Shown: positions 9,819-42,339 of the stretch, in pieces
How the letters are laid out: every line of letters begins with the position of its first letter
Numbering within the stretch: the first letter of the stretch is position 1
NCBI GenBank assembly: GCA_944392595.1
Contig: CALXXD010000007.1
Location: 1 to 49,872 of the forward strand
DNA length: 49,872 nt
Direction: 5' to 3'
Source of the DNA: an uncultured Alphaproteobacteria bacterium
GTDB taxonomy: Bacteria; Pseudomonadota; Alphaproteobacteria; Rs-D84
The notes under the pieces: generated by a model
What the model saw: only the letters and a program-made list of their open reading frames with translations
The model's database searches: none
Told to the model about the DNA's origin: nothing
Translations under genes and position numbers: made by a program

Positions 9819-9833
9819 TGGTTATTATTAAAC

Positions 9834-10037
9834 AAAAAACCACCGCATGTAATATCAGTGGTTGGAGGATACAAACTATAACCAAGCATAGTGGGCTTAT
9901 TCAATATATTCGCCGCCCTCCAACCAAGGTTGGAGTAATTTACGTCACTGCTGACGCTTGGTTTTGGGTTTTGTATCACCCACAACGACAATACATCGTC
10001 GCAATGTATATTATAAGTGGTGTTTTTTTTATTGCAA
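9834..10037 (-). ncRNA. structured leader RNA R1 with attenuator-like terminator
   Basis: Read on minus: promoter TTGCAA (10032-10037), 16 bases, TATAAT (10010-10015); 5' hairpin CGAC/GTCG (9985-10001); stem P1 (9968-9977 with 9868-9876) and P2 (9956-9963 with 9880-9887, AACCAAGC/GCTTGGTT). Inside are hairpin a (CGTCA/TGACG), hairpin b (CTCCAACC-TT-GGTTGGAG) and hairpin c (GGGC/GCCC). Directly after P1 comes CCTCCAACC (9860-9868), which can pair with the 3' arm of hairpin b (9917-9925) or lend AACCAC to the terminator AACCACTG/CGGTGGTT plus six T. No known family matches; same architecture as R2 and R3. Confidence 0.65.
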
Positions 10038-10260: not shown

Positions 10261-10280
10261 TCAAGCCCACACTTTCTTTG

Positions 10281-10343
10281 TCATTCCCGCGCCCGGGGCC
10301 CCCGCAAACATGAATATGTTTGTGGGGTGGATAAGGCGGGAAT
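10281..10343. repeat. nested palindrome repeat, copy 1
   Basis: An outer inverted repeat ATTCCCGC...GCGGGAAT encloses CCCGGGGCCCCCGC, the hairpin CAAACAT/ATGTTTG and GTGGGGTGGATAAG. Copy 2 is at 10489-10549, nearly identical. The bare outer palindrome without the insert is at 10371-10392. Confidence 0.8.
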
Positions 10344-10370
10344 TCTATATCCTTTCAGCAATAATTCTTG

Positions 10371-10392
10371 TCATTCCCGCGAAGGCGGGAAT
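10371..10392. repeat. short ATTCCCGC/GCGGGAAT palindrome
   Basis: TCATTCCCGCGAAGGCGGGA is the simple form of the repeat that carries an insert at 10281-10343 and 10489-10549. Such palindromes are common intergenic repeats in many bacteria. Confidence 0.7.
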
Positions 10393-10488
10393 AGGGTCTA
10401 TTAAATTCATATCGCGGATTACGAGTGAATAAAAAAATACAACGCTGAAATATTCCCCAAATAAAATAATTAAAACAACCCAAGCCCT

Positions 10489-10549
10489 ATTCCCGCACCC
10501 GGGGCCCCCGCAAACATGAATATGTTTGTGGGGTGGATAAGGCGGGAAT
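10489..10549. repeat. nested palindrome repeat, copy 2
   Basis: ATTCCCGCACCC...GGCGGGAAT with the same inner CAAACAT/ATGTTTG hairpin as copy 1; differs by single bases at the 5' edge. Confidence 0.8.
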
Positions 10550-10578
10550 GACAAGTTAAGAGACTAAGTGGATAATTA

Positions 10579-23627: not shown

Positions 23628-23883
23628 TTGACGAATGTACATAAATGCTTGTATTATTGTCTTGCCCATGTAGCAATACTGGGCCGAAAACTGTTAGTAG
23701 ATAAAGGGCTTAATCACCCGATATTACTGATGCACGTTTGCATTATTGACACTGTACAGTCCCGACATTTGTGTCGGGAAGTCGTTGTTATACAATACCG
23801 TTTCTGCGGAAAAGCAACGAGGTCTTTGTAATATCGGACTGATTAACTTCCCGACACCTGCTTTCAGTGGGTGTTTTTTATTA
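23628..23883 (+). ncRNA. structured leader RNA R3 upstream of the lipid A operon
   Basis: Promoter TTGACG (23628-23633), 18 bases, TATTAT (23652-23657). 5' hairpin GCCCA/TGGGC (23664-23684). Stem P1 TTAATCA/TGATTAA (23710-23716, 23840-23846) and P2 CCGATATTAC/GTAATATCGG (23718-23727, 23828-23837) enclose hairpin a (ATGCA-CGTT-TGCAT), hairpin b (CCCGACA-TTTG-TGTCGGG, 23761-23778) and hairpin c (TCGTTG/CAACGA). Next to P1 is CTTCCCGACA (23847-23856), which can pair with TGTCGGGAAG of hairpin b or share ACACC with the terminator before TTTTTT (23854-23879). The next gene starts 18 bases on. Same architecture as R1 and R2. Confidence 0.75.
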
Positions 23884-23900
23884 TCAAAAAGGATATTACA

Positions 23901-24431
23901 ATGACAAAATCGGTTGTGGGGGCTGTCACAATCATTGCAATTACCAGTGCGGGTTTCGGCGCACATGCCCGATCCGTCACAGAAGAAATTGGTGACGCAT
24001 TTCAAGTTATCGTACCGGCGTATGCGTTCGGTATGGCGGTTAATGAAAAAGACTGGGGCGGGGTCAAAGAATTCGCGCATTCATTCTTGGCGATGGAGGC
24101 ATCTGTCCAGGGCCTGAAATTGATCATAGATGAACGCCGCCCCGACGGCAGTGATACAAATTCTTTCCCCAGCGGACATACCGCAGCGGCATTTTCCGGC
24201 GCAACATTCATACACAAACGATACGGCATAAAACGCGCAATTATACCTTACTTGATGGCGGCTTTTACCGGATATTCCCGGATTGCAGCCGACCGACACT
24301 ATTTTCACGACGTGTTGGCCGGTGCCGCAATCAGCAGTTTATTTACATGGGTTTTCGTCAGCAAGTATGACGATGTGCAAATCGCCGCCAGCCAAGATTC
24401 TGTATCTGTGCGGTTCCATACGACATTTTAA
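23901..24431 (+). CDS. PAP2-family phosphatase, probably lipid A/undecaprenyl phosphatase
   Basis: A 176-residue protein with signal or TM segment (residues 4-24) and the three-part PAP2 acid phosphatase signature: KLIIDERRP (about 73-81), SFPSGHTAA (about 87-95) and SRIAADRHYFHDVLAG (about 120-135) with the catalytic His. Such enzymes remove phosphate from lipid A, undecaprenyl-PP or phospholipids on the periplasmic side. Being directly before a PagL-like gene favours lipid A. AAAGGA precedes the ATG at 23901; expression is probably gated by leader R3. Confidence 0.85.
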   Translation: MTKSVVGAVTIIAITSAGFGAHARSVTEEIGDAFQVIVPAYAFGMAVNEKDWGGVKEFAHSFLAMEASVQGLKLIIDERRPDGSDTNSFPSGHTAAAFSGATFIHKRYGIKRAIIPYLMAAFTGYSRIAADRHYFHDVLAGAAISSLFTWVFVSKYDDVQIAASQDSVSVRFHTTF

Positions 24432-24454: not shown

Positions 24455-25006
24455 ATGAAAACTTGGAATTTTGTTTTAATAATATTAACATCTGTTATCG
24501 CATTAACATTCGTTGCCAAAACTGCGTTTGCATCTGACAACGACACGAACATATTATTTGGTGACGCAAAACATCAAATATCGGTATATGGCGGCGTATC
24601 ATTGCGTCACCAGTTTGAAAATCTGTATATGTTTGAAATTCAATATAGCCAGGCAAACACGTTTTTCGGACTGGATGCGCGCCAAAATCTGGAATTAATT
24701 ACTGCACGTGGTTTTGGCGACGCCCAGAAATACAGCCAAGATATCATACTGGGGATTTCCGAAGACGCGATTGTTTTTCATACCCAGCGTTTTTATATCG
24801 GGGCAACACTGGGCGCATATATAAAATCGCAAAAAACAGACAGAATCAGTTCAAAATTTACATTCGGGCAAAAGTTTTTCATCGGACTAAAATTCTTGCA
24901 AAACAGTGCCATGGAACTGTATGTTCGTCATTTTTCTAATGGTTCGCTGACTGAATTAAACTCTGGCCAAAATTTCATGGGGTTAAGTTATACGATTAAT
25001 TTTTGA
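24455..25006 (+). CDS. PagL-like lipid A 3-O-deacylase
   Basis: A 183-residue outer-membrane beta-barrel candidate: signal peptide (about residues 1-26, ending AFA) and alternating hydrophobic strands. The C-terminal catalytic segment YVRHFSNGSLTELNSGQN carries the His-x-Ser pair of PagL, with a terminal SYTINF that fits the aromatic outer-membrane sorting end. PagL removes the 3-position acyl chain of lipid A. Follows the phosphatase gene after 23 bases; the two form a lipid A remodelling operon. Confidence 0.8.
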   Translation: MKTWNFVLIILTSVIALTFVAKTAFASDNDTNILFGDAKHQISVYGGVSLRHQFENLYMFEIQYSQANTFFGLDARQNLELITARGFGDAQKYSQDIILGISEDAIVFHTQRFYIGATLGAYIKSQKTDRISSKFTFGQKFFIGLKFLQNSAMELYVRHFSNGSLTELNSGQNFMGLSYTINF

Positions 25007-26110: not shown

Positions 26111-26135
26111 CCCTTAAATCCCCCGCACACACATC

Positions 26136-26403
26136 AAAAAACCGCCGGTGCAATTCCAGCGGTCGGGGTGTTAGCAATCAAATTATCAATGATTCTGCTG
26201 TCTTCGGGTAACCCCTGTTTTATAATCAGCAGCGCCCCGACCTTTGACAGATCAGGGATGAATAACGATGCAATATCATGAAATACCAGACTTACGGTGT
26301 TTCATTATATCAATGCACCGGATAATTAGGCCTGCTAAAGCCCCGAACGCGGTTCCCACCGTGTTCAGTAACAATTATAATATGAAATTATCGTGATGTT
26401 CAA
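26136..26403 (-). ncRNA. structured leader RNA R2 upstream of the secreted protein
   Basis: On minus: TTGAAC (26398-26403), 18 bases, TATAAT (26374-26379); 5' hairpin GAAC-A-CGGT/ACCG-C-GTTC (26345-26366). P1 TTAGCA/TGCTAA (26333-26338, 26171-26176) and P2 AATTATC/GATAATT (26321-26327, 26181-26187) enclose hairpin a (CGGTG/CACCG, 26295-26320), hairpin b (CCCTGATC/GGTCGGGG, 26250-26257 and 26235-26242) and hairpin c (CTGCTG/CAGCAG). After P1 is CCCCGACC (26161-26168), able to pair with the 3' arm of b or to give ACC to the terminator ACCGCTGG/CCGGCGGT plus six T (26136-26163). Same plan as R1 and R3. Confidence 0.7.
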
Positions 26404-36104: not shown

Positions 36105-36415
36105 TTGAAAAAAGAAAATTTTTGCCCTATAATAAAATTTGAAAGCCGATGACCCTCTAACAATGGCGAGGCGGAAGAAGAACGGCGGCAAGTTTCCTTG
36201 CGCTTACTAGAACTTCCCGGGACTGCCCGTTACAGCAGTGGACTCTTTAATGGTATGGCGAACCCAGCGAGAGTTAAAAAGGCAACCCTGGCGACAGTGT
36301 TGCGAAACAAGGTGGCACCACGTTGTCACGCATATTTTCAGATTACTGGCATATGCGTTTAACGTCCTTGTGTTCTTATTAAAGCATAAACAACGAACAC
36401 AAAAGGAGGTTAAAG
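36105..36415 (+). promoter_or_regulatory. T-box-like leader with promoter and sequestered ribosome binding site
   Basis: Promoter TTGAAA (36105-36110), 17 bases, TATAAT (36128-36133); a 275-base leader full of hairpins precedes aspS2. AAGGTGGCACCACG at 36310-36323 matches the T-box core (consensus AGGGTGGNACCGCG). Its TGGC is what a tRNA with discriminator G needs, as tRNA-Asn at 48329 has. ACGTT and ACGCATAT pair with ATATGCGT and AACGT (36321-36365) with no T-run. AACGTCCTTGTGTTC (36361-36375) can pair with GAACACAAAAGGAGGTT (36396-36412), hiding the AAAGGAGG site. This suggests translational control. The specifier codon was not identified. Confidence 0.7.
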
Positions 36416-37732
36416 ATGTCTAAAATAAGAACGCATATCGCCGAAATTCCACAAAAAATTGGCGAAACAATAACTGTCAAAGGTCACGCACAAACTATCC
36501 GTGCGCAATCAAGCGTTGCGTTTATTGTCCTGCGTGAAATCACCGGCACGGTTCAATGCGTTGTTGAACGTGGAACAGCGGCCTTTGAATTGGCAAAACA
36601 AATAACAACAGAATCTGTTATATCTGTGACAGGTACGGTTGTAAAAACACCCAGCACGGAATCAGGATTTGAAATCCACGTTTCTGAACTGGAAATCATG
36701 TCGTTGGCCGAGGCGACCCCAATCCCCGTAACCCCAAAGGGCAGTGTTGAAGTAACGCCTGAAAAAGCCCAGGATTGGCGTTTCTTGTCCCTGAGATCCC
36801 CGCGTGGCGCAACGATAATGCGTGCGCTGTCTGCGATGACGGCCGGATACCATGAATATTTGGAAAAGCGTGGATTCATTGAAATCCAGACCCCAAAGAT
36901 TATGGCAACACCGTCTGAATCCAGGGCGGAATTATTCAAATTGGAATACTTTGGCCAAACGGCATACTTGGCGCAATCGCCACAATTATTCAAACAGATG
37001 GCAATCGCGGCGGGTCTGGAACGCGTGTTCGAGGTTGCGCCGGCATTCCGTGCAGATCATTCCTTTACCACACGGCATTCAACCGAATTTACATCGTTTG
37101 ACGGTGAAATGGCGTATATCGAAAGCTTCGAAGAAGTGATGAGTGAACTGGAACAGGCGGTGCGCTATATGCTGACATCCATCAAAAAGACATGTGGTAA
37201 AGAAATTGAAAAATACTTTGGCATATCAGAGTTTCAGTTAAAGAAACCAATCCCACGCATCACCATGGCACGTGCCAAGGAAATTTTGCGAGAAATAGGT
37301 TGCGCCAGCGAAGAACCGGACATAACCACCGCCGAAGAAAAGGCTTTGGGTGAGTATGTTCTAGAACACTATGGTTCTGATTTTGTCTATATCACCGAAT
37401 GGCCATGGGAATGCCGGCCGTTCTATCACAAGAAAGGCATTGGCGAACATGGGCAAGCGATATCTGTGTCGGCTGACTTGCTGTATCGTGGGGTTGAAAT
37501 TGTGACCTGCGCCCAGCGTGAAGAGTCATACGAAAAGCTATGCGAACAACTGCGCGAAAAAGGATTACACCAAGAGGGGCTGCAGTGGTACCTGGAGTGC
37601 TTCCGATATGGTATGCCACCGCATGGTGGTTGGGGTATGGGCGGTGCCAGATTCATAAAACAACTGCTGGATCTGCCCAGTTTGCGCGAGGCTACATTCC
37701 TGTTCCGTGGACCGACCAGACTCATGCCATAA
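36416..37732 (+). CDS. aspS2: archaeal-type (non-discriminating) aspartyl-tRNA synthetase
   Basis: A 438-residue class II synthetase. It has an OB-fold anticodon domain (about residues 15-110), then the catalytic core with motif 2 FEVAPAFRADHSFTTRH and motif 3 GWGMGGARFIKQLL...FLFRGPTRLMP. The compact length, without the bacterial insertion domain, and FVYITEWPWECRPFYH mark the archaeal/eukaryal-type AspRS, whose members often also charge tRNA-Asn with Asp. In Clostridia such second AspRS genes can be T-box controlled, which fits the leader and points to transfer. Hairpin and tRNA-Asn remnant follow directly. Confidence 0.85.
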   Translation: MSKIRTHIAEIPQKIGETITVKGHAQTIRAQSSVAFIVLREITGTVQCVVERGTAAFELAKQITTESVISVTGTVVKTPSTESGFEIHVSELEIMSLAEATPIPVTPKGSVEVTPEKAQDWRFLSLRSPRGATIMRALSAMTAGYHEYLEKRGFIEIQTPKIMATPSESRAELFKLEYFGQTAYLAQSPQLFKQMAIAAGLERVFEVAPAFRADHSFTTRHSTEFTSFDGEMAYIESFEEVMSELEQAVRYMLTSIKKTCGKEIEKYFGISEFQLKKPIPRITMARAKEILREIGCASEEPDITTAEEKALGEYVLEHYGSDFVYITEWPWECRPFYHKKGIGEHGQAISVSADLLYRGVEIVTCAQREESYEKLCEQLREKGLHQEGLQWYLECFRYGMPPHGGWGMGGARFIKQLLDLPSLREATFLFRGPTRLMP

Positions 37733-37986: not shown

Positions 37987-39510
37987 ATGAATACTAATAA
38001 TTTTTTGGCTTATAAGTTTCCTAATGCTGGGCAATTTTATTCGGACCCAAATTGTCTGAAGCCGTTGTTTATTGGACAGATAGAAATTATAAAGAATAAG
38101 ATATACATAAAAGTTCTATCAACAGAGTCATATCTATATTACTGCAATAGAACATTATATGCTCGTTTCTCTTCTGATAATGAACTAACCAGGCTAGTTT
38201 CTTATACATTTTTTGACTGTGAATTGAGTGGTGACTCATTTACAAAATATCGAATTAAGTTCAGTTCGTTTATAAGTCACGATAACGGTAATTTTTATGG
38301 TGCCGCAAGCGAACCTTTAGAAAATAAAGCTTGTCTACCTAATTTTATAGAGCAAAATGATACATTTAAGAAAATTTCTTTTCAAATTGACAATTTAGAT
38401 AAATGGTTATGGAGACTAAGTTTAGAAGAAGAAAGAGACGATAGAAAGTTAAAACAATCAGAGTTTGCAGCAGAATATCTTGATAATAAAGGGAACATTT
38501 ATAAAGGTTATAGGACTTTCAATGGGTATGATAAGTCTATAACCAAAATGCAAATTCCGTTTAAAAGTCTAAAAAAGACTATTAAATTAAATGACGATAC
38601 TTCTTTGACTATATGCTCAGAACCAAATGCAATAGGCAGTCTGTTCCCAGATTTTTCAGTTAACCAGATAAGTTATATAGAGATAAAAACGAGAACCCCT
38701 CAGCCATTTTTATTCTTTGCAAGAATAATTGCCAAGACACAAAAGTACTTGTCCATATTAACTAATTCAGAATGTAAAATTCATAGGATATACAACTTTA
38801 CACCTAGAAGTATAAAAAAACAGGAATATCATAATATAGAATTTTATGATAATAGGCTTGTTTGGGATCTAGAGCAAACAGAGCAGGATGCTTGGCATGT
38901 AAGTTATAATATGACATATAGAAAAATAAAAAAGGATTTTGCTAACTCTATCAAAAATTTTTTTGATAAGTACAGTAAATTACATTTGCTTATAGATTTT
39001 ATTTTAAATGGTGAACATAAAACAGATTTTTTAGAATTGTATGTAGCCACTCAGATTCAATTGGTTGAAATTTATGGTAATTTAAAATCCATGAGAGCAG
39101 GCAAAAAAACGAAAAAGGATATAAAATTAGCATTATCGATGATACCAGATAAAGCCTTTGATTTGATATTTATTCATTATTATAAAACTAGAAACTCTAT
39201 TCCTTGCTTTGATATTTTTGGGGATATTTCTAAAACCAAGGATACTGTTCAAGCGGAAGTAAATAAATATCGCTCAATTCTGGAAGACAATTTGATGGAA
39301 CTAAGAAATTTCATTATACATCCTTGTAGAGGAGGGGATTTAAAAAAAGCAGAAAAAGAAAATATTTATGATTTTTGGTGTTGTTCAAAAACACATGGGT
39401 TGAATTATAGGGCTATTTCACAATTGTCAGTAAGCCTTAATAAAATGATTAGATTTTTGATTTTACAAGAAATAGGTTTGGAAAATTACTTCTATAAGGA
39501 AAATGAATAA
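37987..39510 (+). CDS. ApeA-like HEPN anti-phage protein
   Basis: A 507-residue protein with a beta-rich N-terminal region (residues 1-310) and a helical C-terminal domain (about 330-500) containing the HEPN ribonuclease motif R-x4-H as RNFIIHP, near residues 440-446, with basic surroundings. Large N domain plus C-terminal HEPN fits the ApeA family of abortive-infection proteins, thought to cut RNA on phage infection. The assignment is from architecture and motif. AT-rich (about one third GC), unlike the core genes, and in a defence cluster, so transferred. Confidence 0.65.
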   Translation: MNTNNFLAYKFPNAGQFYSDPNCLKPLFIGQIEIIKNKIYIKVLSTESYLYYCNRTLYARFSSDNELTRLVSYTFFDCELSGDSFTKYRIKFSSFISHDNGNFYGAASEPLENKACLPNFIEQNDTFKKISFQIDNLDKWLWRLSLEEERDDRKLKQSEFAAEYLDNKGNIYKGYRTFNGYDKSITKMQIPFKSLKKTIKLNDDTSLTICSEPNAIGSLFPDFSVNQISYIEIKTRTPQPFLFFARIIAKTQKYLSILTNSECKIHRIYNFTPRSIKKQEYHNIEFYDNRLVWDLEQTEQDAWHVSYNMTYRKIKKDFANSIKNFFDKYSKLHLLIDFILNGEHKTDFLELYVATQIQLVEIYGNLKSMRAGKKTKKDIKLALSMIPDKAFDLIFIHYYKTRNSIPCFDIFGDISKTKDTVQAEVNKYRSILEDNLMELRNFIIHPCRGGDLKKAEKENIYDFWCCSKTHGLNYRAISQLSVSLNKMIRFLILQEIGLENYFYKENE

Positions 39511-39782: not shown

Positions 39783-40346
39783 ATGGCAAAAGTACTTTAT
39801 ACTCGTGTAAGTTCAATTACTCAAAACCTTGATAGACAATTGCAGGAAGCCGATAAGTATGACAAGGTCTATGAAGATAAATGTTCTGGTAAGAATACTG
39901 AAAGACCAGCCTTGCAAGAAATGTTAGGTTATATTCGTGATTCTGACGAGGTGTATGTTCACGAGTTATCAAGATTAGCCAGAAACACATTTGATCTGAT
40001 AGATTTGGTAAATAAGATACTGGCAAAAAATGCATCCATACACTTTATTAAGGAAAATTTACATTTCAGCCCAAATAAAGAAGATGCGACCAGTAAATTA
40101 ATGCTAACTATTTTTGGTGCGATTGCTCAATTTGAAAGGGAAATTTTAAAAATCAGGCAAAAAGAAGGCATTATTATCGCCAAAGCCAAGGGCAAGTTCA
40201 AAGGAACAAAGAAACGATTGTCCGCGGAACAGATTCAAGAATTAAAAGAATTGGCACAGAATAGAAAAGTTTGGACAATACAAAAATTAATGACCAGATA
40301 CCAAATCAGCCGTGCATCCGTGTATAATTATTTGTCCACACTATAA
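39783..40346 (+). CDS. serine recombinase (resolvase/invertase family)
   Basis: A 187-residue recombinase: catalytic Ser10 in LYTRVSSITQNLDRQL, ELSRLARNTFDLIDLV, then IAQFEREILKIRQKEG (E helix) and a C-terminal helix-turn-helix (WTIQKLMTRYQISRASVYNYL). Standard length for a resolvase or DNA invertase. AAAGGGG precedes the ATG. The 272 bases upstream hold no gene. It is the only recombinase in the accessory region and may be cargo resolution rather than integration machinery. Confidence 0.92.
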   Translation: MAKVLYTRVSSITQNLDRQLQEADKYDKVYEDKCSGKNTERPALQEMLGYIRDSDEVYVHELSRLARNTFDLIDLVNKILAKNASIHFIKENLHFSPNKEDATSKLMLTIFGAIAQFEREILKIRQKEGIIIAKAKGKFKGTKKRLSAEQIQELKELAQNRKVWTIQKLMTRYQISRASVYNYLSTL

Positions 40347-40419
40347 TTTTTCTGTTAATCAATAAATTATAAAGGATGTAAGATTTTATATTCATACATC
40401 CTTTTCACAAAGGTTATAA

Positions 40420-42339
40420 CTATAACTTTATAATTTCCTTTATTTTGTCAAAAATAGGTTTAAAAACAGTCCAATCAAAATCTGCTAAATCTGCAACCAA
40501 ATCAGCAAAATCGTTCTTAGATAATGCCACATTGGCTGTTCCGTCTAACACTTTATAAACCTTAGAGTCTATTACCGCATTTATATCTATTTTGTCGCCT
40601 TTCAAATCTGATTTGGCTATGAAGTATTCTCCTGTATTATCTACATAATTTGCTCCGCCATAAATTTTTTTATCAGAAAATTCACCACCAAAGAAAAGTC
40701 TTCTTCCGTCTTTATTAAGCTTCTTGGCTTCAGCCCCATAATAGTGTTCTATAGATATCCTGTCTGCTTCTTCAGATAGCTTAGGAATGCAAAAGGCATA
40801 TACATTATTTCCATAACTTTTATATCCATTTGGTTGTGAAGTTTCAATTTCTTCAACAGTATCTGCTACATCTCTATCAAAAATTCCTATTATCTTATGA
40901 GTATTTCGATTTAAAGCTAGATTTTGTAAAAATGTTTTCACTTTGCTTTCCCCAAAATTTTCGGGAACTTCGACAAAATCAATATCTAAATCCTTAATGT
41001 TTAATTTTAACAAAGCTGTTTGCAAATGCTTTATATCTGTTTTCCCTTCTGTTATTATAGTCGACTTATTTTGTGCCGAAATTTTGGATTTTAATTCATC
41101 AACCTTTTCTTTAAATCGTTCATTTTCAGAAATCATTAAATTATAAGCTTCGTCATATACTTCTGTTGCTTCATAAGGACATATAAGTCCACCTTTGTCT
41201 AAATTAATAATTTGGGTTCTTTTTTCTGTTGTTTTATCTTGCATTAAGCCCATACAAAAAAATGGTGAGTGCGAACTGATTATAAATTGAACATTTGGGA
41301 AAAGACCTATTAATATAGGCAATACCTCTTTTTGCAGTCGTATATGCAAATGCTTTTCTATTTCATCAATTAAAACAATTCCTGAGATTTTTTCTAGGGC
41401 TTCAAGTTCCACACCTATTTTTTGGTATAATGTATCAGACTGTTTTATAAGTTCGATAAAAATATCTATGATAGCAAGTTCTCCTGAACTCATATTATAA
41501 AAATTTGGATATAGCAATTTGTTTGTTTCATCTATTATTGCTAATCTCGTGGCACTTCTATGCCTAGTTCCGATATTCAAAGTTGTATATTTAGAGAATC
41601 CCTTTTGTTTTAAAATATTATAAATTATACTGTTTAAAATAGACAACAAATTGCCACCATACATTTTATAATCTAGAACAACATCTAACATCCAATTAGT
41701 TATATAATGAATATTAGAGACAACCTCTATTTTGTTTGGTAAAAATCCAGAATAACCAGACACTCTCGAGAATTCTAAATCCTCTGATTTAAATACCCCA
41801 TTTAACCATGAGGGTATTTCATTTCTATAGCTAGGGAAATATGTTAAAATATTTTTATTAAATATTTCTTTAGATTCTTTGGTATCTAGTGTATCATTAT
41901 CGAAGTATACTAGTTTTACAAAATCTTGTTCTTCTAAAGACGACTTAAAGCTGATATATGGTATTTTGGAGTCCAAATTTATAACCCTTTCATATTCGCT
42001 TTCAAACTTTTCAGTATTATTAACAGCATAGATATAATCTACTGTTTTTTCATCCATTTTAAATCTCATATACACAAATCCCGGTCGTGTTTTATCTAAT
42101 AAATAAATTGGAGAACTAATTCTATACAAATAATTTTCTTTCTCTTTAAATTCTTGCGGAAAACCAACTTTAGCAATTTCATAAAAAGCATCTACAATGT
42201 AACTAATAATAGTTGTTTTTCCTTTGCCGTTAATGGCAGATAAAACAGTAATTTGGTTTGGTTCAAAATTTAAATCTAGTGTTTTATCAAATGGTGCCAA
42301 ATTATGTATTATTAATCTTTCTATTCTAAACTTAGACAT
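40420..42339 (-). CDS. OLD-family AAA ATPase with TOPRIM nuclease domain
   Basis: A 639-residue protein. It has an SMC/ABC-type ATPase with Walker A SAINGKGKTT (about residues 34-43), signature MSSGELAIIDIF, Walker B GIVLIDEIEKH and the His switch FIISSHSPFF, followed by a C-terminal TOPRIM domain with the Glu in TIITEGKTDIKHL and IGIFDRDVAD. OLD nucleases act in phage defence and DNA repair. No UvrD-like partner (as in Gabija) is adjacent, so it is a class 1-like standalone. AGGGG lies before the ATG. Confidence 0.85.
   Translation of the reverse strand: MSKFRIERLIIHNLAPFDKTLDLNFEPNQITVLSAINGKGKTTIISYIVDAFYEIAKVGFPQEFKEKENYLYRISSPIYLLDKTRPGFVYMRFKMDEKTVDYIYAVNNTEKFESEYERVINLDSKIPYISFKSSLEEQDFVKLVYFDNDTLDTKESKEIFNKNILTYFPSYRNEIPSWLNGVFKSEDLEFSRVSGYSGFLPNKIEVVSNIHYITNWMLDVVLDYKMYGGNLLSILNSIIYNILKQKGFSKYTTLNIGTRHRSATRLAIIDETNKLLYPNFYNMSSGELAIIDIFIELIKQSDTLYQKIGVELEALEKISGIVLIDEIEKHLHIRLQKEVLPILIGLFPNVQFIISSHSPFFCMGLMQDKTTEKRTQIINLDKGGLICPYEATEVYDEAYNLMISENERFKEKVDELKSKISAQNKSTIITEGKTDIKHLQTALLKLNIKDLDIDFVEVPENFGESKVKTFLQNLALNRNTHKIIGIFDRDVADTVEEIETSQPNGYKSYGNNVYAFCIPKLSEEADRISIEHYYGAEAKKLNKDGRRLFFGGEFSDKKIYGGANYVDNTGEYFIAKSDLKGDKIDINAVIDSKVYKVLDGTANVALSKNDFADLVADLADFDWTVFKPIFDKIKEIIKL

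Follow-up and report, generated by a model that had tools for sequence, protein, structure and literature searches.

What kind of RNA precedes the PAP2 gene in this stretch of DNA (the window, 49,872 nt from an uncultured Alphaproteobacteria bacterium), and how might it control the genes behind it? The leader in question, R3, stands in front of two plus-strand genes, one encoding a PAP2 superfamily phosphatase (23901-24431; PF01569, E 2.2e-17) and the other a PagL-like lipid A 3-O-deacylase (24455-25006; PF09411, E 8e-12), and had been described in a first-pass annotation as a new attenuator class. The analysis presented here indicates that R3 is most likely an antisense leader of the C4 type to which a transcription terminator has been added, predicted to control PAP2-PagL, and that it probably belongs to a lineage known to Rfam by its 3' half alone (sRNA-Xcc1, RF02221).

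Architecture of the R3 leader

Every R3 element named in the first-pass annotation was found at its position, and the full layout was confirmed. Reading along the plus strand, the leader begins with a sigma-70-like promoter, TTGACG-18-TATTAT (23628-23657; -35 TTGACG at 23628-23633, -10 TATTAT at 23652-23657), with a -10-like TATAAT at the matching position in the consensus of 60 aligned leaders. There follow a 5' hairpin predicted by folding (23664-23684), the a1 hairpin GGG-CTTAATCA-CCC (23706-23719), which carries a1 (23710-23716) in its loop, and b1, GATATTAC (23720-23727). These segments provide the upstream side of a long-range stem in two parts, TTAATCA (23710-23716) pairing with TGATTAA (23840-23846), and CCGATATTAC (23718-23727) with GTAATATCGG (23828-23837). 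The middle hairpin (23760-23779) has a 3' arm that doubles as the 5' arm of the outer stem (23772-23781/23847-23856) of a C4-like RNA, the sRNA-Xcc1 part of the leader (23772-23856, placed from an RF02221 match at 23773-23863 and the fold). Enclosed by this stem are a core hairpin (23782-23820), a second hairpin (23822-23839) with b' (23828-23835) in its loop, and a single-stranded a' (23840-23846). The pre-terminator segment CTTCCCGACA (23847-23856) supplies the other arm of the outer stem, and the first bases of the intrinsic terminator (23853-23879) lie within it. A putative target site covers the PAP2 ribosome-binding site (RBS; 23880-23900) and consists of a degenerate a2, ATTATCA (23880-23886), and b2, GATATTACA (23892-23900).

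R3 folds with a minimum free energy of -81.4, against -59.0 +/- 4.45 for shuffled sequences (z -5.03), and none of the 200 shuffles equalled it. That these are chance hairpins in an AT-rich intergenic region is barely credible: no supporting point was found, and both the shuffle z of -5.0 and the covariation and model matches across relatives given below contradict it.

A conserved family with an sRNA-Xcc1 3' half

The first-pass annotation had proposed a comparison with Rfam, expecting a new class. No Rfam family reaches its cut-off on R3, and no Rfam riboswitch model matches it; below the cut-off, however, open thresholds reveal a match to RF02221 (sRNA-Xcc1) that scores 41.4 bits against a gathering cut-off of 53 bits (E 3.3e-6) and covers the whole model. 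R3 aligns full-length (model positions 1-87) to the sRNA-Xcc1 consensus structure, with the AUACAAUACC / GGAA core. Among genomes of the window's family, RF02221 matches occur at an open threshold in 90/142, compared with 0/14 control genomes at the same threshold; four of the 142 have a copy above the RF02221 cut-off, and a full-length leader model matches 135/142 of these relatives. Copy numbers per genome in the four relatives scored more fully were 16, 29, 22 and 17.

The 60 aligned leaders share a conserved core (GUCGGG, UAUACAA, GAA, CCCGAC) which, together with the RF02221 match, overturns the earlier statement that the RNA has none. Across these 60 relatives the outer stem, core hairpin and b' hairpin are 83-98% paired, the helix matching the R3 a1 hairpin is 96% paired, and the b1/b' long-range helix shows two-sided changes at 7/7 pairs. 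In alignment A3, whose structure includes pseudoknots, 87.5% of cells are paired, two-sided changes number 446 vs 156 in shuffles, and the covariation score is 0.399 vs <=0.107 when partners are slid. Further copies, strong compensatory change and the folding energy mean that R3 passed the checks on all three points, which supports the view that the leader RNA is real and conserved and that it combines mutually exclusive pairings with a terminator. The claim of a new class found no support, as the 3' half is homologous to RF02221 and the module as a whole has the architecture of the phage C4 antisense leader.

In this genome the RF02221 model picks up five leaders and the full-length covariance model seven copies, including one (at C4:32598) newly found by the latter, which precedes an outer-membrane-protein-like gene. 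R2, the second copy (minus strand, 26135-26379; leader about 26372-26135), lies before a 357-aa ORF (26110-25037) and repeats the R3 layout, with its -10 at 26379-26374, a1 hairpin at 26344-26329, C4-like part at 26242-26161 and terminator at 26164-26135; its fold scores z -4.8 against shuffles. Although R2 and R3 had been called unrelated in sequence, both share UAUACAA/UAUAAAA...GAA and GUCGGG/CCCGAC and form one alignable family. R1, a reduced third copy on the minus strand (9833-10037; leader about 10003-9833), precedes a 55-aa ORF (9818-9651) and comprises a promoter (10037-10010), a1 hairpin (9981-9966), C4-like part (9925-9858) and terminator (9860-9833), matching RF02221 with E 6.6e-4 in a search of one genome. 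R2, R3 and several relatives were included in the model-building alignment, so their own scores follow from that construction.

Other features of the window were noted in passing. Adjoining R1, a repeated stretch at 10270-10560, CATTCCCGCCTTATCCACCCCACAAACATATTCATGTTTGCGGGGGCCCCGG, folds strongly on both strands. A class II (D,K,N) tRNA synthetase gene (ORF 36416-37732) is preceded on the plus strand (36105-36415) by a promoter-like site and a leader of ~280 nt with AAGGTGGCACCACG, resembling a T-box antiterminator motif; the Rfam T-box model gave no match to this leader, and T-boxes are rarely found in Alphaproteobacteria. In L210 a related leader stands before an apparent 2-isopropylmalate synthase gene. 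Finally, 37987-39507 and 39783-42339 may form a defence island, with a protein carrying an ApeA-like N-terminal domain, a resolvase and an AAA_21 (AbiEii-type) ATPase.

Antisense match to the PAP2 ribosome-binding site

The segment previously read as one side of the long-range stem can pair in that way, and it is also antisense to the PAP2 RBS: 23822-23835 is complementary to 23892-23905, over the PAP2 start codon (inverted repeat I19), a relation absent from the earlier reading. The match of R3 b' to the start site extends over 14 nt with one mismatch, and the duplex has P 0.005 against shuffled RBS sequences. In the orthologue L098 the RBS carries TTAATCA and GATATTACA, copies of a1 and b1 (P 0.0007), and a2 plus b2 are present at the RBS in both L098 and a further orthologue, L106, a2 being the degenerate element in R3. 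Taken over many loci, b'-a' pairs better with its own RBS than with those of others (z -6.3 for 19 non-redundant canonical loci and z -5.0 for 38 loci of the window's family, with 0/20000 permutations in each case), and swapping the partners of the upstream a1-b1 pairing gives z -9.2 for canonical loci and -16.8 for the window's family. On this measure of complementarity the RBS match is cognate-specific. Taken alone, the match fails to reach significance in five copies of this genome, R1, R2 and three others (P 0.11-0.66), and this is the main weakness of the C4-type reading.

A proposed double lock

On the predicted pairings, b'-a' can associate either upstream with b1-a1 or downstream with the start site, and the outer stem overlaps the terminator. 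This overlap recurs in relatives: an automatic search placed the first four bases of the terminator, which pair next to the T run, within the outer-stem arm at 19/40 loci. As long as the RBS has not been made, the energies calculated for R3 without pseudoknots put the a1b1 state ahead (-61.9 vs -59.0 at 23858 and -73.6 vs -64.4 at 23883), and with the RBS included the a1b1 (-81.9), outer-stem (-80.0) and RBS-paired (-82.6) states are too close to rank.

From these sequence features we infer that R3 would not be a ligand riboswitch but a double lock made of RNA, its two parts being the terminator and the antisense. With a1-b1 holding b'-a', the middle hairpin would form and the terminator would be complete, so that transcription stops. 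Formation of the C4-like fold would instead let the outer stem take the basal pairs of the terminator, allowing polymerase to read through, and would at the same time free b'-a', which may then block PAP2 translation either in cis or, were the RNA set free, in trans. PAP2 would be expressed only once another partner engages b'-a', such as a short a1-b1 RNA supplied in trans as with IsrK.

Genes downstream of the leaders

The leader is kept before PAP2 in L135, L136 and L139, and the second PAP2-like gene of this genome also has one (L160). The PAP2 gene has named relatives in uncultured gut Alphaproteobacteria, whose samples were of goat, rumen and termite type. In two PAP2 leaders (L160, 1501-1685, and L139, 2735-2928) a plain hairpin replaces the UAUACAA core loop. 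Copies typically lie 40-50 nt before a start codon, and a terminator-like hairpin is present in 36/40 leaders of two relatives. In the same two relatives 28/40 (70%) of the downstream proteins look secreted vs 8/41 (20%) of the window ORFs, the signal-peptide-like call being a simple hydrophobicity rule. Pfam matches among the downstream proteins include beta-barrels, YadA anchors, PMP repeats and glycosyltransferases, with no common pathway.

These observations bear on a ligand- or protein-sensing transcription attenuator, in which the UAUACAA...GAAA internal loop would bind, the long-range stem would report and the terminator would be the sole output, RBS complementarity being incidental. 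The conserved unpaired bases of the core hairpin, the frequency of terminators and the terminator/outer-stem overlap are all in keeping with such a device, yet we consider it unlikely, given that the RBS complementarity singles out the cognate gene, that L160 and L139 have exchanged the core loop for a plain hairpin, that the downstream genes lack a common pathway and that R3 matches no Rfam riboswitch. A ligand-type trigger, taken earlier as the natural reading, is not supported, and a C4-type antisense architecture is favoured in its place. Three further candidates were set aside: a riboswitch (no Rfam class, unrelated downstream genes, a core loop lost from two leaders), a type III toxin-antitoxin system, which has the order promoter-RNA-terminator-gene (the genes are mostly unrelated surface proteins), and a retron or HEARO-like RNA (Rfam gave no match and no gene is linked).

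The sRNA-Xcc1 family in proteobacteria and phages

Across the phylum, 55 of 398 genomes have RF02221 matches. The Rfam model describes only the 3' half of an R3-type RNA, the a1, b1 half being absent from Rfam, whereas canonical RF02221 loci also carry a 5' half, in the order GC hairpin with a1 in its loop, b1, hairpin plus T run, and sRNA-Xcc1 part; a1 could be located in nearly all of them. Genes following the canonical loci encode Bro-N (5/27), Rha (3), SymE (2), P22_AR_N and KilA-N proteins, of which Bro-N, Rha and KilA-N are of antirepressor type. In phage records the RNA lies directly before ant or KilA-N-type genes (e.g. Rac-SA53, Pasteurella phage Pmp1 and Vibrio phages), and one such record annotates it as sRNA-Xcc1. 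In Xanthomonas integrons sRNA-Xcc1 is found upstream of symE (PMC12444791), and blastn of a SymE-type locus against plasmids returned short matches only. A C4-type antisense facing the start site of the next gene would explain the position of sRNA-Xcc1 before SymE and phage antirepressors. An integron attC site was also considered, sRNA-Xcc1 being cassette-borne in Xanthomonas, and was rejected as the repeats are explained by covarying RNA pairings. Separately, in L053, where an RF02221 locus precedes a P22_AR_N gene, a sub-threshold match to c4-2 (RF02944; 2890-2958, minus strand) lies ~1.4 kb from that locus, and therefore two C4-type lineages may share one prophage.

The published account of sRNA-Xcc1 is of a free RNA, detected at 88 nt by RACE and Northern blot (PMC2996969), and R3 could by analogy be a trans-acting sRNA directed at distant mRNAs, its place before PAP2 being incidental. 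The terminator that follows the RNA in R3 would suit this, but the short distance of the copies from start codons, the fit of the antisense segment to the cognate RBS and the conserved position before PAP2 in relatives make it very unlikely. The reading of R3 as a C4-type leader also gives sRNA-Xcc1, an Rfam family with no established target, a testable function as the 3' half of a C4-type module.

C4-type regulation itself is known. The presence of many C4-derived RNAs in one bacterial genome has likewise been described, in Acinetobacter (PMC5320573). What appears to be new, within the literature that could be searched, is the union of RF02221 with C4, the 5' half missing from Rfam and the set of surface-protein genes with its terminators. 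The novelty of the union is suggested because RF01695 (C4) and RF02221 share no Rfam clan and because, within that literature, the one paper that names both sRNA-Xcc1 and C4 antisense RNA lists them as separate hits. The occurrence of the module before genes for secreted proteins, outer-membrane proteins and lipid A modification in one gut family points to domestication, such that a decision circuit of phage origin may by now govern the cell surface. More tentatively, a phage antirepressor switch could have been turned into a general regulatory device in one lineage of small-genome gut Alphaproteobacteria. A genome would hold up to ~29 copies that evolve separately, every one having an antisense address and a terminator of its own. 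Together they would make a network built of RNA only, where cross-talk in trans between terminated leaders selects the surface proteins and lipid A modifications to be expressed; we regard this wider scheme as possible, if rather doubtful.

Comparison with known systems

Of the RNAs compared, sRNA-Xcc1 resembles R3 in that its model aligns from end to end with the 3' half of R3, and differs in the sub-cut-off score of R3, in an Rfam model without the a1/b1 half, and in a published role as a trans-acting RNA without an established target, whereas R3 is a leader before PAP2. The C4 RNA of phages P1/P7 (RF01695 with RF03163, c4-a1b1) offers the fuller parallel. The annotated order before icd-ant in P1 is a1, b1, C4 RNA, a2, b2, and this stretch scores with the C4 (68.8 bits) and c4-a1b1 models, and below cut-off with isrK. 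R3 shares the order promoter, 5' hairpin, a1-in-loop hairpin, b1 and hairpin, followed likewise by a C4-like RNA and by a putative a2/b2 at the RBS; it passed a test for the C4-type fold (outer stem, hairpin, b'-in-loop hairpin, single-stranded a'), its core has the same folded topology as P1 C4, and its upstream a1/b1 are complementary to a'/b' as in C4. Unlike C4, however, R3 has no match to the C4 model RF01695 at E<=5, its core hairpin contains a conserved internal loop, a terminator stands between RNA and gene in the window's family, which is not so in P1, and the gene that follows is PAP2, not a phage antirepressor such as the icd-ant system that C4 controls. R3 would thus work like C4 whilst failing the C4 model and controlling no antirepressor. 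The 5' end of the P1/P7 C4 RNA is reported to be made by RNase P (work cited in PMC5320573).

IsrK of the Salmonella prophage Gifsy-1 (RF01394) resembles R3 in that an upstream segment and the RBS compete for one strand, and there a short RNA of the a1b1 type opens the leader in trans (PMC4825925). No T run follows the inner hairpin of R3 (23728-23745), so that R3 is not expected to yield a short IsrK-like product. The Group 1 (C4-derived) sRNAs of Acinetobacter baumannii, lastly, are a precedent for many C4-type RNAs per genome, processed from longer transcripts (PMC5320573); they match C4 itself and lack established targets, whereas the copies in the window's family directly precede surface-protein genes.
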